From NCBI GenBank assembly GCA_016193585.1, contig JACPRW010000004.1, positions 62,001 through 126,000 of the forward strand: a DNA stretch of 64,000 nucleotides. Direction: 5' to 3'. The notes below the pieces were generated by a model, which was not told the origin of the DNA, searched no databases, and was given only the letters and a program-made list of their open reading frames with translations. Of the stretch, positions 5,378 to 58,399 are shown in pieces (the stretch's first letter is position 1; each line of letters opens with the position of its first letter). This DNA comes from Candidatus Aenigmatarchaeota archaeon. Lineage in GTDB: Archaea > Aenigmatarchaeota > Aenigmatarchaeia > GW2011-AR5. The position numbers and the translations under genes are program-made.

Positions 5378-5478
5378 TGAGCCCTGCGCGATTCGAACAC
5401 GCAACCCCTTGGTCCGAAGCATCACCACGAGACTATGTGCATCTCATACAAGTGCTCTATCCGTTGAGCTAAGGGCCC
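5378..5478 (-). tRNA. tRNA-Arg(UCG) with 28-nt intron in the anticodon stem
   Basis: Acceptor stem GGGCCCT/AGGGCTC with discriminator A, D-arm GCTC...GAGC, T-arm GCGTG-TTCGAAT-CGCGC. The anticodon arm only folds if 28 nt (5421-5448) are removed between positions 30 and 31, giving stem CTTGG/CCAAG and loop CTTCGGA with anticodon TCG. The mature tRNA is then exactly 73 nt. The intron contains its own hairpin (ATGAGA/TCTCGT). This is not the canonical 37/38 intron site; non-canonical introns spliced at bulge-helix-bulge motifs are known in archaea. CCA is not encoded. Confidence 0.85.
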
Positions 5479-20644: not shown

Positions 20645-20746
20645 ATGTACTATATATAGGTAAAAGCAGGATATAATTATTTCTGCCGGCCGGGATTTGC
20701 ATAAAAGTACCCCCATCACCGTTCTTGTATGGTGAATTGCACTGGT

Positions 20747-20895
20747 TATAGTGGAACAACAAAAGAATACCGACATATTACTTTTGTTGTCCGCTACACG
20801 CGGAAAACAACGTTTTCCGGTGCACCAAAAAGCTTTGCTTTTTGCGTGTAAGTGAACCAAGATATAATACCTGATTATTTACTTGGTTCACTATA
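20747..20895. repeat. composite palindrome array P-U-Q
   Basis: P (20747-20796): TATAGTGGA...GTCCGCTA arms around AATACCGACATATTA. U (20797-20848): CACGC/GCGTG stem enclosing two hairpins (GGAAAAC/GTTTTCC and AAAAAGC/GCTTTTT). Q (20849-20895): AGTGAACCAAG/CTTGGTTCACT. The same P and Q are adjacent without U at 33295-33391 and 51994-52090. A half-palindrome R (GGTGAATTGC) precedes it. The 20645-21031 gap holds no gene. Confidence 0.8.
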
Positions 20896-20950
20896 TCTGT
20901 ACAGGAGAATCTTCGATTCTCCTCATATCGTGTTTATTTCCTTGTATTGC

Positions 20951-20983
20951 TATAATACGACATAAGCTGCGCAATTATCTATA
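20951..20983. repeat. right half of palindrome S
   Basis: TATAATACGACATAAGCTGC followed by GCAATTATCTATA; matches the right half of the element that is complete at 49614-49661. The left half is missing here. Between Q and this half is another hairpin, GGAGAATC/GATTCTCC (about 20904-20922). Confidence 0.6.
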
Positions 20984-33194: not shown

Positions 33195-33232
33195 CTCGCC
33201 ATGGTTTTCTCGTACATCTCTGCAAGGAAATA

Positions 33233-33420
33233 TGGTGAATTGCACTGGTTATGTTCTGATATTATTTGCAATTCACCTATAGAAAATTGCGCGTTATAGT
33301 GGACCAACAAAAGAATACCGACATATTACTTTTGTTGTCCGCTATAAGTGAACCAAGATATAATACCTGATTATTTACTTGGTTCACTATAATACGACAT
33401 AAGCTGCGCAATTATCTATA
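33233..33420. repeat. nested palindrome array: R, then S carrying P-Q in its loop
   Basis: R (33233-33280, GGTGAATTGC/GCAATTCACC) adjoins S (33278-33420, TATAGAAAATTGCGCG ... GCGCAATTATCTATA). S is interrupted by P (33295-33346) and Q (33345-33391). Removing 33297-33389 and one TA leaves GCGCGTTAATACGACATAAG, which matches the uninterrupted S at 49614-49661. Fills the gap between the pilin gene and the next ORF. Confidence 0.85.
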
Positions 33421-33483
33421 ATAACCGTCAAGATGGCATAGGCGGCTTTGTAAACAAAGCCGGTTGGGTACTAATCTTTTTGA

Positions 33484-40756: not shown

Positions 40757-43702
40757 TTAACAAAGTCTCTTAATCTCCTCAAGAACATCATTCATATCGT
40801 CATTTATTCTGGCTGCACGATATCTTCTGATCTTCCAACCTAGACCTCTTATATGATTATTTCTAAGAGAATCTTGTTCTTTTCTTTCTAGATGTACTGT
40901 GTCGCCGTCCACTTCTATATCATAATTTGATGTGTCTTTGAAAAGCGCAAAATCCAGTCTATAGAACTTGCTGCCAACTTTCAGATTATATTGTGGTTTC
41001 ACAAAGATGCCTATTTTCTCAAGCCCGTTAAACAATGTCTCTTCAGCAGGAGAGTCAAAACGTAACTTATTCTCATTTTCCTCAGCATAATCAGCTAGTT
41101 TCTTTAGGGGCCCATCATATTCACGGCATTTATCAATGTCCCCAACTATAACCAATAGACTTCGTGCACGAGTAACAGCCACATTTATCAGTTCTGGAGT
41201 TGAATCGTTTATCCACTCCATGGTTCGCTTACTAACACCCTTGGATACGCCCGGTGAAAATATGATTATATCCCTTTGATCTCCCTGAAATGTATGTGCA
41301 GTTCCAACAGTAACATCAATAATTTTCCTAATGTCGCTTTTTTCTATTTCTTCCTCTATTAGATCGGCCTGGGATCTAAATAGCGTTACAATCCCAAAAG
41401 ATTTGTTTCTGAGCTTAGACTTACTATATTTTATCAATGTGTCCAAGACGACCTTAGCTTCTTCTATGTTTATGGAGCTTCCGAAGGATTTTGTTGTGCC
41501 AGAAACATTTACCCATTTTATTCTACGAGGCTCATCTATGTTTCTATCACGTGTCTTTATTTTGAGTTTATTTTCATAAAAGTGAATATTAGAATAGTCA
41601 ATTATGTCTCTGTGGGATCTGTAATGTTCATTAAGCAGTAGAGGTGACTGATTACAGGATCTAACAACTCTCTCAGAAACATCGTATATACTATTTTTGC
41701 TGTAAGAGAAATCTACGAAATTTTTGACCTTGTTTTTTGAGGCTATTTTCGTGTCCTCAACATAATTCATAGTACAAACGTGTCTAAGTTGTTTTGGATC
41801 GCCTATTATGACAGTACGTTTTGCACGGTACAATAGCGGAAGCGTTGAGGCAATATCGTTCTGAGAAGATTCGTCTATAATTAATAGATCAAAAAAGGCT
41901 CCGCTTAAAGGAAAACTATTCTTTGCAGAGAGATTGGTTACGACCCACACAGGCAATGTCTTTAGCGCATGAACTATCTCCTTCTCCCATTCAGAAGAGA
42001 GATTCTTCCATATATCCCTATCTATGAAGCCTTCTTCAAGTTTTTTAGTAATATCAATATATCTAGTTATGTGATTTATGTCTGACTCACTTAGGGTTTT
42101 TATCTTTTCTATTATGGTTCCCTTAACAATTGCCTTCGAGATCTCAATTTTCCTTTTCTTCATATCATGTATTTTTACATCAAAAATGTCTTCAGAGTCG
42201 ATTTTCTGAATTTCATTAAATATATCCTCTCGCTTCTTCATCAAATCCGTCAGTTTATCAAGCACCTTGAAATAGCTCTCCATAAGTCGTATAAATTTTT
42301 CCAGTCGTTCATCACTATCCCAAAAATCATTGATGTATCTAAGAATCTTTTTCGATATCTTGCCTTTCTGATTTCTGAAATTCTTGCACACGAAACTCTT
42401 GTAATACCAAGGCAATAAAATCCTTATTATCTTCTTTAAAATTCCGTCACAGTCTCTGAAAAATTCAAGATCCTTTTCGAGCAAATTATGATTAAAGTTT
42501 CCGTACTTGTCAGTATAAATTTCTCTTAGTTTTTCGGGTATTATATCAAGAGATGAGTCTATTTTACTTTGGTATGTTTCTAATTCATTCTGCAAATCCA
42601 TTATTTTCTTCATGGAAGCCATTTTTTCGTTTTTTATCTCAATTATAGAGGAATTTACGGCTTTTAATTCTTCTGTGAGTTTTTTGATGTTTGGAACCTT
42701 TAGGCTTCTTCTCGTTGCAATTATACTTTCTATTTCAGAAAATGCGTTTCTTCGCTTTTCTCTATGACCCATTCTAACTATAAAATCCATACCAAATACG
42801 GACTTTAGGTCGTTTACAACAACGTCCACTGCTTTATTGTTTTTACTTGCCAGAAGAACTGTCTGGTTGCTAAAAACAGCATTAGCAATAAGATTTTTGA
42901 CTACCCATGACTTTCCAGTTCCTGGAGGGCCTGTTATGACTGTGACGAGGTTTGAAAGCGACTCTTCAACAGCATTTTCTTGTGAATCGTTCATCTCTAA
43001 AATTTCAATATCAGGGGACTTGACGAAACTTCTTTTTTTAGTTTCAGAAGGATTCAGAATATGATGTAATGCTGTTGATTGGTGGCTGCGCCCTTTCAGG
43101 ACATCAAGTTCTTTTATAAGACTCCTTGTATATCCTGTATTGACACCACTGTATATGATTGCCTTATTGATTATTTTTGGGGTTTCTTGGTATCTTACAT
43201 TATCCTTTGAAAGTAGTCTAGAAGCTTTGAAATCGCTACCCAATAGAGTACAAATTTTTCTTAATTTTGTGTCAAAGCTTCTCTCCTCATCAATATCGGC
43301 TGCTATGCCATCAATTTCAGAAGAAAATTTGTTCTTTACCAGTACGTAGCGATTCAATTCCATCCCTGTGTTTTGTCTGACAAAGGTCATTTTGCCGTCT
43401 TTTTCGTTTACGAGAATCTCAACAAAAAATAATGGGGCTATTTCACCTTTATCTACATATACCGGATAGCCATAGAAAACACGTATGGAATTTGTCTTTA
43501 TTGTAGAACTCAATTTTTCACTGGGGTTTACAGAAAATTCCTCATGACCTCTCTGAAATAAAGATTCCTCAGTAATATTTTCAGGGAAGAATTTTTTACC
43601 TTCTTCATGGAGGTTAAATCTGAGGTTTCTATAGTCCTCTTCCTTTAGGCATTCGATGTAATAATTTATCAAATTACCAAACTCAACTCTAGATACGTTC
43701 AC
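40757..43702 (-). CDS. SF1 helicase fused to a Vsr/DUF559-like nuclease
   Basis: 981 residues. Q-motif-like NDSQENAVEE, Walker A GPPGTGKSWV (about 258-265), a long coiled-coil insertion (about 320-560), motif II LLIIDESSQND, motif III GDPKQLRH and motif V/VI GTAHTFQGDQRD...NVAVTRARSLLVIVGD. The C-terminus carries a PD-(D/E)XK-type domain: SPAEETLFNGLEKIG, KFYRLDFALF, YDIEVDGDTVH, LGWKIRRYRA. Helicase-Vsr fusions occur in single-gene antiviral systems. Very AT-rich relative to its neighbours, so acquired. It stands alone, bordered by a transposase remnant and palindromes. Confidence 0.85.
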   Translation of the reverse strand: MNVSRVEFGNLINYYIECLKEEDYRNLRFNLHEEGKKFFPENITEESLFQRGHEEFSVNPSEKLSSTIKTNSIRVFYGYPVYVDKGEIAPLFFVEILVNEKDGKMTFVRQNTGMELNRYVLVKNKFSSEIDGIAADIDEERSFDTKLRKICTLLGSDFKASRLLSKDNVRYQETPKIINKAIIYSGVNTGYTRSLIKELDVLKGRSHQSTALHHILNPSETKKRSFVKSPDIEILEMNDSQENAVEESLSNLVTVITGPPGTGKSWVVKNLIANAVFSNQTVLLASKNNKAVDVVVNDLKSVFGMDFIVRMGHREKRRNAFSEIESIIATRRSLKVPNIKKLTEELKAVNSSIIEIKNEKMASMKKIMDLQNELETYQSKIDSSLDIIPEKLREIYTDKYGNFNHNLLEKDLEFFRDCDGILKKIIRILLPWYYKSFVCKNFRNQKGKISKKILRYINDFWDSDERLEKFIRLMESYFKVLDKLTDLMKKREDIFNEIQKIDSEDIFDVKIHDMKKRKIEISKAIVKGTIIEKIKTLSESDINHITRYIDITKKLEEGFIDRDIWKNLSSEWEKEIVHALKTLPVWVVTNLSAKNSFPLSGAFFDLLIIDESSQNDIASTLPLLYRAKRTVIIGDPKQLRHVCTMNYVEDTKIASKNKVKNFVDFSYSKNSIYDVSERVVRSCNQSPLLLNEHYRSHRDIIDYSNIHFYENKLKIKTRDRNIDEPRRIKWVNVSGTTKSFGSSINIEEAKVVLDTLIKYSKSKLRNKSFGIVTLFRSQADLIEEEIEKSDIRKIIDVTVGTAHTFQGDQRDIIIFSPGVSKGVSKRTMEWINDSTPELINVAVTRARSLLVIVGDIDKCREYDGPLKKLADYAEENENKLRFDSPAEETLFNGLEKIGIFVKPQYNLKVGSKFYRLDFALFKDTSNYDIEVDGDTVHLERKEQDSLRNNHIRGLGWKIRRYRAARINDDMNDVLEEIKRLC

Positions 43703-43740
43703 TTTGCCCCGCCTAAAAAAGGTTGTTTAAAAGATTAGGT

Positions 43741-43806
43741 GATTATTTACTTGGTTCACTATATATGGAAAGAACATTGTAAAATGTTCCAAAATCAATG
43801 TTCTTT
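43741..43806. repeat. half Q palindrome plus a second hairpin
   Basis: GATTATTTACTTGGTTCACT at 43741-43760 is the right half of Q without its left arm. It is followed by AAAGAACATTG/CAATGTTCTTT (43769-43806) around TAAAATGTTCCAAAAT, the same loop as at 11107-11143 but with different arms. Lies between the helicase start and the broken deaminase gene. Confidence 0.7.
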
Positions 43807-43810
43807 ACTA

Positions 43811-44300
43811 TTAGAATTTTTCGTCCCATGGATGCGGGAGTAAGTCTTTAAGTTTCACTACTTTTGTTCTCCCGATTATAATCTCTGTATCCATATTTTT
43901 TCCATGAATCTGGTGCATGAGTTCCCTGCATCTTCCGCATGGGGGCCCTGCTATCCCATTTTTGAAAACCGTCACAATTTTTTTGATTATATAGTAAACT
44001 GCGTTACTTAGGTTACATAATACAACGCAGTTTGCATATAGATAACTGCTAATAATACGTCACATAAACTACGCAGTTATCTATATATTCGCCGTGCGTA
44101 ACCATTGCTGCAATGGCGCTATGTTCGGCGCAGAATCCCATTCCAGAACACGCATCAATACAAACACCGAGGTACATAGTGCCTTTATCTGTAACCAGTG
44201 CGCATCCGACATCTCCAACAGTAAATCCATGTGCAATCTTTCTCGGCCTTACTACTGATTTTGCTTTTTGAATGAGTTGTTCATTGGTGACCTTTCCCAT
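43811..44300 (-). pseudogene. cdd: cytidine deaminase interrupted by a palindromic element
   Basis: The 5' part (44300 leftwards) encodes GDVGCALVTDKGTMYLGVCI and the zinc motif CAEHSAIAAM; the 3' part encodes GIAGPPCGRCRELMHQIHGK (second zinc motif PCxxC) and ends DLLPHPWDEKF. Between them lies a 92-bp twin palindrome (43992-44083) plus a duplicated TA. Excision restores GEY-II-KKIVTVFKNG in frame. As it stands, the product stops after GEYIDNCVVYVTYY and lacks two zinc ligands. The two exon-like halves are otherwise intact, so the insertion looks recent. Confidence 0.85.
43992..44083. mobile_element. twin palindromic insertion inside cdd
   Basis: Two palindromes share TATA at 44037-44040: TATAGTAAACTGCGTT/AACGCAGTTTGCATATA and TATAGATAACTGC/GCAGTTATCTATA. 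It is flanked by TA on both sides (43990-43991 and 44084-44085). The open frame of the host gene is restored by exact removal. No coding capacity. Confidence 0.85.
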
Positions 44301-49267: not shown

Positions 49268-49403
49268 GGGTCTGTAGTCTAGCTTGGTAGGACTCCGGCT
49301 TCGGGACCAATCCCTTTTCTTGTAAGAAAAGGTCTTGGTGAACCCCAAAAGAACACCAAGAGCGAGAAAGCCGGGAGCCTGAGTTCAAATCTCAGCGGAC
49401 CCA
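49268..49403 (+). tRNA. tRNA-Pro(CGG) with an intron of about 63 nt
   Basis: Acceptor GGGTCTG/CGGACCC plus A; D-arm GTCT...GGAC; anticodon stem CCGGC/GCCGG; loop TTCGGG|A with anticodon CGG; T-arm CTGAG-TTCAAAT-CTCAG. The intron lies between positions 37 and 38 (the canonical site) and contains two hairpins, CCTTTTCTT/AAGAAAAGG and CTTGGTG/CACCAAG. No encoded CCA. Confidence 0.88.
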
Positions 49404-49417
49404 TGAGCAAATCGGTT

Positions 49418-49824
49418 TATAGTGAACCAAGTAAATAATCCGGATATTATAACTTGGTTCACTATAGGTGACCAACTTGTGTAATACCTGAATATTAAGT
49501 TGGTCAGCTATAAACCGCGCAATTTTTCGCGGAATTGGATGGTGCACGCGCTCTGCGCTTGCGGTAATTATTTTGTGCGGCGCACCTGATATTGATTTCT
49601 ATGGAAGAAGAATTATAGATAATTGCGCAGCTTATGTCGTATTAACGCGCAATTTTCTATAGGTGAATTGCAAATAATATCATGACATATAGTGAACCAA
49701 GTAAACAATCAGGTATTATATCTTGGTTCACTTACACGCAAAAAGCAAAGCTTTTTGGTGCACCGGAAAACCTTGTTTTCCGCGTGTAGCGGACAACAAA
49801 AGTAATATGTCGGTATTCTTTTGT
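49418..49824. repeat. palindrome array: Q', T, structured spacer, intact S, R half, Q, U, partial P
   Basis: Q' (49418-49466), T (49463-49512, TATAGGTGACCAACTT/AAGTTGGTCAGCTATA) and a structured spacer. S intact (49614-49661, TATAGATAATTGCGC/GCGCAATTTTCTATA). R half (49658-49687), Q (49688-49734), U (49735-49786), P without its far arm (49787-49824). The order is the reverse complement of the array at 20747. The 49404-49906 gap has no ORF. Confidence 0.85.
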
Positions 49825-51993: not shown

Positions 51994-52148
51994 TATAGTG
52001 GACCAACAAAAGAATACCGACATATTACTTTTGTTGTCCGCTATAAGTGAACCAAGATATAATACCTGATTGTTTACTTGGTTCACTATATATTTACCAA
52101 ATCTCCTTCATGGCAAGTTCATGTAAAGTCTAATCAACAACTGAACTT
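51994..52148. repeat. twin palindrome P-Q plus one hairpin
   Basis: P (51994-52045) and Q (52044-52090) share TATA and match the pair at 33295-33391 with few changes. Downstream is AAGTTCA/TGAACTT (52115-52148) around a loop with TGTAAAGTCTAATCAACAA, related to the loops at 40147-40235. Lies between the convergent Lrp and Hel308 genes. Confidence 0.85.
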
Positions 52149-58300: not shown

Positions 58301-58399
58301 AGCTTTGTTGCAAAAGTACCCATCACCCACCTTTATGTCGGTGATGGGTTCCCGTTAGCCTACGGCAGAATGCCGTAGGCGGCTTTTGCAACAAAGCCT
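58301..58399. mobile_element. 99-bp three-stem palindromic element with 8-bp target duplication
   Basis: Outer stem AGCTTTGTTGCAAAAG/CTTTTGCAACAAAGCCT encloses ACCCATCACC/GGTGATGGGT and GCCTACGG/CCGTAGGC. AGGAAGGG lies directly before (58293-58300) and again directly at the right end (58400-58407). Non-coding, MITE-like. Partial sequence matches (TTGCA...AAAGTACCC, CATCACC) lie at 20695-20720, and GGCGGCTTTG...CAAAGCCG at 33440-33465. Confidence 0.75.

Follow-up and report, generated by a model that had tools for sequence, protein, structure and literature searches.

A 93-bp twin-hairpin element inserted at the loop TA of another twin-hairpin element in a Candidatus Aenigmatarchaeota genome

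The closest described system to the repeats analyzed here is the repeat unit of pneumococcus (RUP) with IS630-Spn1. RUP is a gene-less element of ~107 bp that uses TA targets, exists in many highly conserved copies, has ends similar to those of an IS630-family insertion sequence (IS) and was found within other mobile elements (PMC2229807). Within the IS630/Tc1/mariner group, the ISY100 transposase alone inserts at TA in vitro, and the TA is duplicated (PMC2170065). Two further kinds of repeat are relevant for comparison, namely the Correia elements (CREE/NEMIS) of Neisseria, TA-bounded units of about 107-155 bp that start TATAGTGGATTAACAAAAA (PMC5039591), and the paired hairpins of REPIN/BIME units, which reach high copy numbers. 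The three families described below, P-Q, R-S, and V, are like RUP in size, lack of genes, TA target and IS630-like ends, in having many highly conserved copies and in their occurrence within other mobile elements. They also share with IS630/Tc1/mariner ISs (ISY100, IS630) the TA target and its duplication, and DDE_3 genes with matching ends are present in relatives; unlike these ISs, they carry no gene. On the other hand, RUP is bacterial and has a proposed cognate IS, whereas the host of our families is a DPANN archaeon whose assembly contains no IS630 transposase; here, each unit consists of a pair of complete hairpins, and the nesting among several of the families is recursive. IS630-type MITEs are a known kind of element, but twin hairpins, three-level nesting and insertions at loop or central TAs are unusual. 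In the literature outside subscription papers, we found no description of MITEs from Aenigmatarchaeota or other DPANN archaea.

The window is a stretch of 64,000 nucleotides, part of an assembly of 1.17 Mb in 10 contigs (90.75% complete), and it encodes archaeal genes, such as a helicase with archaeal domain 4 and DUF460. Its features, in window coordinates, are as follows.

33231-33420, plus strand: R-S twin MITE with P-Q in the S loop (C1:95231, 190 bp; empty length TA+91+TA)
33231-33281, plus strand: hairpin R, uninterrupted, loop ...CTGG-TTATG-TTC...
33278-33296, plus strand: left half of S, ending with one copy of the duplicated TA (33295-33296)
33297-33389, plus strand: P-Q twin-hairpin MITE, 93 bp (P 33295-33346 and Q 33345-33391, including the flanking TAs)
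33390-33420, plus strand: second copy of the duplicated TA (33390-33391), then the right half of S
49614-49661, minus strand: hairpin S without insertion, the empty site for P-Q
49662-49824, minus strand: R half of the 49614 R-S copy, with P-Q in the R loop at 49688
49688-49824, minus strand: P-Q in that R loop, comprising Q (49688-49734), a 52-bp double-hairpin insert (49735-49786) and truncated P (49787-49824)
49418-49512, plus strand: another twin, hairpins 49418-49466 and 49463-49512 with a common central TATA
20728-20983, plus strand: three-level composite of the R left half, P-Q with the 52-bp insert, V remnants and the S right half
51994-52090, plus strand: whole P-Q in an unrelated context
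44037-44085, plus strand: S-like hairpin TATAGATAACTGC...GCAGTTATCTATA, with the ends of the IS630 element of relative G021
43740-43763, plus strand: lone truncated Q end

The occupied S site reads GCGCGT-TA-[33297-33389, 93 bp]-TA-ATACG, and the empty S site at 49614-49661 (minus strand) reads GCGCGT-TA-ATACG. With wider flanks, positions 33276-33422 are CCTATAGAAAATTGCGCGT-TA-[TAGTGGACC...GGTTCACTA]-TA-ATACGACATAAGCTGCGCAATTATCTATAAT, where the inner bracket is 33297-33389 (93 bp), and positions 49611-49663 on the minus strand are CCTATAGAAAATTGCGCGT-TA-ATACGACATAAGCTGCGCAATTATCTATAATT. When placed on the empty site, the prefix and suffix of the occupied site share exactly two bases, TA; therefore, the target duplication is TA, as originally predicted, and there is no other difference at the junction. 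Deleting 33297-33389 together with one TA joins flanks that equal 49611-49681 (minus strand) over 71 bp with 0 mismatches, which places P-Q inside S at precisely the coordinates of the original prediction. The predicted unit length of 93 bp is borne out by the same comparison, and the ends are seen again in other genomic copies. Two observations could have spoken against this reading, a junction difference beyond TA and a lack of uninterrupted S copies elsewhere; no empty S deviates at the junction, and 30 S sites are uninterrupted at the same TA. Insertion of the 93-bp P-Q into the S loop with duplication of TA is thus confirmed, and the genomic copies, in which both the ends and the empty state recur, support the claim that one element inserted into another.

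The nature of the host element had to be revised. S was proposed as a palindromic element, and it does form a whole hairpin at 49614-49661; however, it does not stand alone but is half of the 91-bp R-S twin. The right arm of R continues into S in 37/37 copies across the genome, and therefore the host of the insertion is R-S rather than S. This twin reads TATGGTGAATTGCAC...CACCTATAG...CTATA, with 91 bp between its two TAs, and contains 12 TAs. The site at 49614 is indeed empty at S, but the R loop of the same R-S copy holds a truncated P-Q; the copy at 33231 has P-Q at S and is empty at R. The genome contains 41 S sites (30 empty, 10 with V and one, at 33297-33389, with P-Q), and all S insertions, whether V or P-Q, use the same TA. 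The insertions of V and of P-Q into S must be separate events at this one TA out of the 12.

P-Q itself is real, as predicted, but it is far more abundant than the original prediction had it: 14 copies are whole and ~30 are split. The whole copies are 96-100% identical, lie in unrelated contexts and always have TA on both sides, whereas the split copies are interrupted centrally by the 52-bp double hairpin. The outer ends of P-Q are TAGTGGACCAAC and TAGTGAACCAAG. As expected of a MITE, it is short and non-coding, has terminal inverted repeats, occurs in multiple copies and targets and duplicates TA. Folded as DNA, a P-Q strand reaches -25.2 kcal/mol, compared with -4.7 +/- 1.7 for shuffled sequences (z = -12), which excludes a chance origin of its hairpins. 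Relative to whole P-Q, the 52-bp insert shows no net TA duplication; our reading is that the founding composite had lost one of its TAs. The start of P, TATAGTGGACCAACAAAAG, matches the Correia start at 16/19 bases when compared by eye (PMC5039591), a likeness that may reflect a common IS630-like end design or chance. The 26-bp repeat pair of Correia elements is missing from P-Q, which shares no interior with them either, and common descent is not claimed; assignment of P-Q to CREE was rejected, as the 26-bp inverted repeats were not found at both ends and the Q end diverges.

The third family, V, is another twin of ~92 bp and occupies the S loop in 10 copies, all in one orientation; P-Q occupies the R loop in 10 copies, at a single TA and in a single orientation. 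The single orientation within each set fits amplification of composites and suggests a single founder composite for most copies of V in S and another for most copies of P-Q in R, each of which would have moved as a unit; repeated independent insertion of V into S or of P-Q into R is not claimed. The V copy at G000:C3:203902, in the center of a different hairpin (AAAGGACTTCT-TA-AGAAGTCCTTT), is an independent loop insertion. All of these elements are built of two adjacent hairpins with a common central TATA (or CTATAG). Their outer ends are mostly TATAG..., as in P-Q, V, element 49418-49512 and many elements in relatives, and R-S starts TATGG. Elements of a second class, whose ends are TACATGG...CCATGTA or similar and whose center is TGTACA, insert at V's central TA and duplicate it. 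Nesting reaches up to three levels, for example in the composite at 20728-20983.

Joining the flanks of the copies produces a hairpin across the insertion point in 12/33 R-S, 9/31 P-Q and 5/7 V copies; when shared composites were collapsed by hand from printed flanks, the proportion was ~13/58. The background for such hairpins is 129/2529 TAs in the window (5.1%), or 57/2379 outside known elements (2.4%). These figures suggest that insertion prefers hairpin loops. It is possible, although we hold this only tentatively, that TAs located in the loop of an extruded hairpin, or at its base, are the preferred targets of this clade's transposase and that the twins serve as mutual landing pads, forming composites that can still transpose. 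Selection, or survival of harmless insertions, would yield the same loop pattern. With loop TAs used repeatedly, it becomes testable whether structure guides the choice of target in the Tc1/mariner/IS630 superfamily.

Where could the transposase come from? A search of the genome's own assembly (90.75% complete) returned 0 DDE_3 matches, and its best NF033545 match (E = 0.0047) was at noise level; a cognate transposase gene in the same genome, which is not strictly needed for a MITE, was not found there. Ends of the same kinds occur on two DDE_3 elements of the IS630 family in other Aenigmatarchaeota, namely TATAGATAACTGC for the S type and TATAG....CCAAATAAATAANCCG for the Q/V type. The first of these elements belongs to G021, a relative from the same order that is rich in the same repeats. 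Its IS630 transposase (DDE_3 8e-34, HTH_33, HTH_32, NF033545 1.2e-67) starts after TATAGATAACTGCGAAACTT, and two 3' copies of the element diverge directly after AACTTATGCAGTTATCTATA, exactly past CTATA. The first 13 bases of this element's end are identical to those of hairpin 44037-44085 (13/13) and nearly so to those of S (12/13); agreement between the G021 ends and the left end of R-S is weak (9/13). The second, a 992-bp element of G109 with HTH_33 and DDE_3 in split frames (a frame change), has ends TATAGTACTCCAAATAAATAACCCG and TATAGCTTTCCAAATAAATAATCCG. Its end pattern is TATAG....CCAAATAAATAA(C/T)CCG, and the same 16-mer occurs in a MITE of G006, a genome of the archaeon's own family. 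Q starts TATAGTGAACCAAGTAAATAATC, V starts TATAGTGAAGCAAATAAATAATACC and the G006 twin starts TATAGTGAACCAAATAAATAACCCG; the G109 element ends are similar but non-identical to those of P-Q. Ends in common with IS630-family ISs (DDE_3) were thus found in relatives for the S type (G021) and the Q/V type (G109), and both hairpin types are tied to ends of the IS630 family, although neither relative supplies a partner that is both identical and intact. A DDE_3 fragment in G021 C72 beside a TATAGTGGACCAAC end was rejected as the cognate transposase, as the MITE sits within that pseudogene, and the IS630 genes L132 and L133 were rejected as partners because they showed no TATAG-type ends.

We therefore consider it very probable that P-Q, R-S, and V are non-autonomous IS630-type MITE families that are moved in trans by an IS630-family transposase, duplicate TA and nest into composites. 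The unit ends, TA duplications, empty sites, copy numbers, nesting and matching ends in relatives can be read at the level of sequence. From the lack of an IS630 transposase in the genome's own assembly we infer mobilization in trans. The substrates would be gene-less units of ~91-93 bp, with two hairpins joined at a central TATA and ends mostly TATAG...; a Tc1/mariner-like DDE transposase would bind their ends, excise the element and join it to a TA dinucleotide, which would become duplicated. P-Q would have landed in this way at the loop TA of hairpin S (33297-33389). Elements bearing an insertion retain intact outer ends and presumably moved on as composites, each transposing as a single unit, up to three levels.

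Other explanations have points in their favor. The absence of an IS630 transposase from the assembly would fit TA-duplicating MITEs served by a different enzyme, of the IS5 family (IS427 group) or an unrecognised one in the missing 9%, and a multicopy rve_3-type IS is present at several contig ends; however, the ends of this IS, TGTTAACCGACAG, are unlike TATAG, and the end motifs fit the DDE_3 elements of two relatives, so we regard such an enzyme as unlikely. The strong stems also invite the view that the hairpins are kept mainly for a function as signals in RNA or DNA, such as terminators or processing sites, and that their mobility is only apparent. No Rfam family matches them, and any such role would be an undescribed one; presence or absence at identical TAs, near-identical copies and mutual insertion are marks of transposition and make a main role as signals improbable, while a side role is possible.

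Paired hairpins with strong single-strand folding also resemble REPIN/BIME units, that is, REP/REPIN-type palindromes mobilized as single-strand hairpins by an IS200/IS605-like Y1 transposase (RAYT). That mechanism leaves no target duplication, whereas TA is duplicated here; the units are bounded by TA with no GTAG tag, and their ends match IS630 elements rather than being RAYT-type. REPIN/RAYT identity would entail insertion without target duplication; we rejected this identity because of the TA duplication, which leaves it highly improbable. Finally, the assembly is fragmented and its contig ends lie in repeats, as might be expected if assembly or recombination had artificially fused two repeats; however, many copies, with flanks that are unique, show this type of junction, which also has parallels in other genomes, and an artifact is hardly credible. 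Read as IS630-type MITEs, these repeats document a large, young burst in the 1.2-Mb genome of a DPANN archaeon, with units, targets and empty sites defined to the base. This reading also accounts for contig breaks and for odd palindromes that await annotators of these metagenome-assembled genomes (MAGs).

Contig ends were also seen to lie in ISs. Six contigs (G000:C2 end, C4 start, C5 end, C6 start, C7 end and C9 start; loci L162, L074, L167, L168, L171 and L174) halt ~140 bases into one rve_3-type IS with the end TGTTAACCGACAGCCCATACTGAGCC, which at the C7 end falls within a P-Q copy. The C3 end and C5 start of G000 hold another IS (TGTTATGCGACAGCGGATATTGAGCC). At G000:C8:12500-14500 (L177), 1340 N adjoin an R-S copy; this is about the size of an IS630 element, and a scaffold gap or a masked stretch is possible.

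Twins of the same architecture were found in several Aenigmatarchaeota. Exact-pattern matches came from the Candidatus Aenigmatarchaeota MAGs JACRMW, JACPJV, JAGVVU, and JACPAH, from GW2011_AR5 and from one Pacearchaeota genome (JACQLL), and the ends are present in 9/31 genomes of the order; the genus is represented by this genome only. The plasmid and viral collections gave no match, and a Bacilli match from the GTDB pattern scan (L110) was dismissed: it lacks a second hairpin arm that ends in CTATA and lies in coding sequence, where it seems to have arisen by chance. JACQLL carries short TATAGTGAACCAAC...GTTGGTTCACTA palindromes (L109, L111 and L129), a pattern hinting at horizontal spread of the ends to another DPANN group; a search for a DDE_3 gene in that genome found none. 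The reading given above ties twin-hairpin repeats across Aenigmatarchaeota, and apparently in one Pacearchaeota genome, to IS630 transposases.

Rfam identified only two tRNAs in the window. Their genes, at 49268-49403 (136 bases) and 5378-5478 (101 bases), have lengths that suggest introns, and the former lies ~15 bases upstream of a twin-hairpin element. The minus strand at 40757-43702 encodes a 981-aa AAA_11/AAA_12 helicase fused to a DUF559/MTES_1575-like nuclease domain, a layout seen in some defence proteins. A further multi-stem repeat (TTTGTTGCAAAAGTACCCATCACC...GGCTTTTGCAACAAAG) occurs at 58302-58397 and 20690-20730, with apparent fragments elsewhere in the window. In JACRMW (loci L107, L112, L113 and L121), second-class inserts bear more double hairpins at their central TGTACA; this center is empty in L121 and filled in L113, resulting in arrays of short hairpins with TA duplications.
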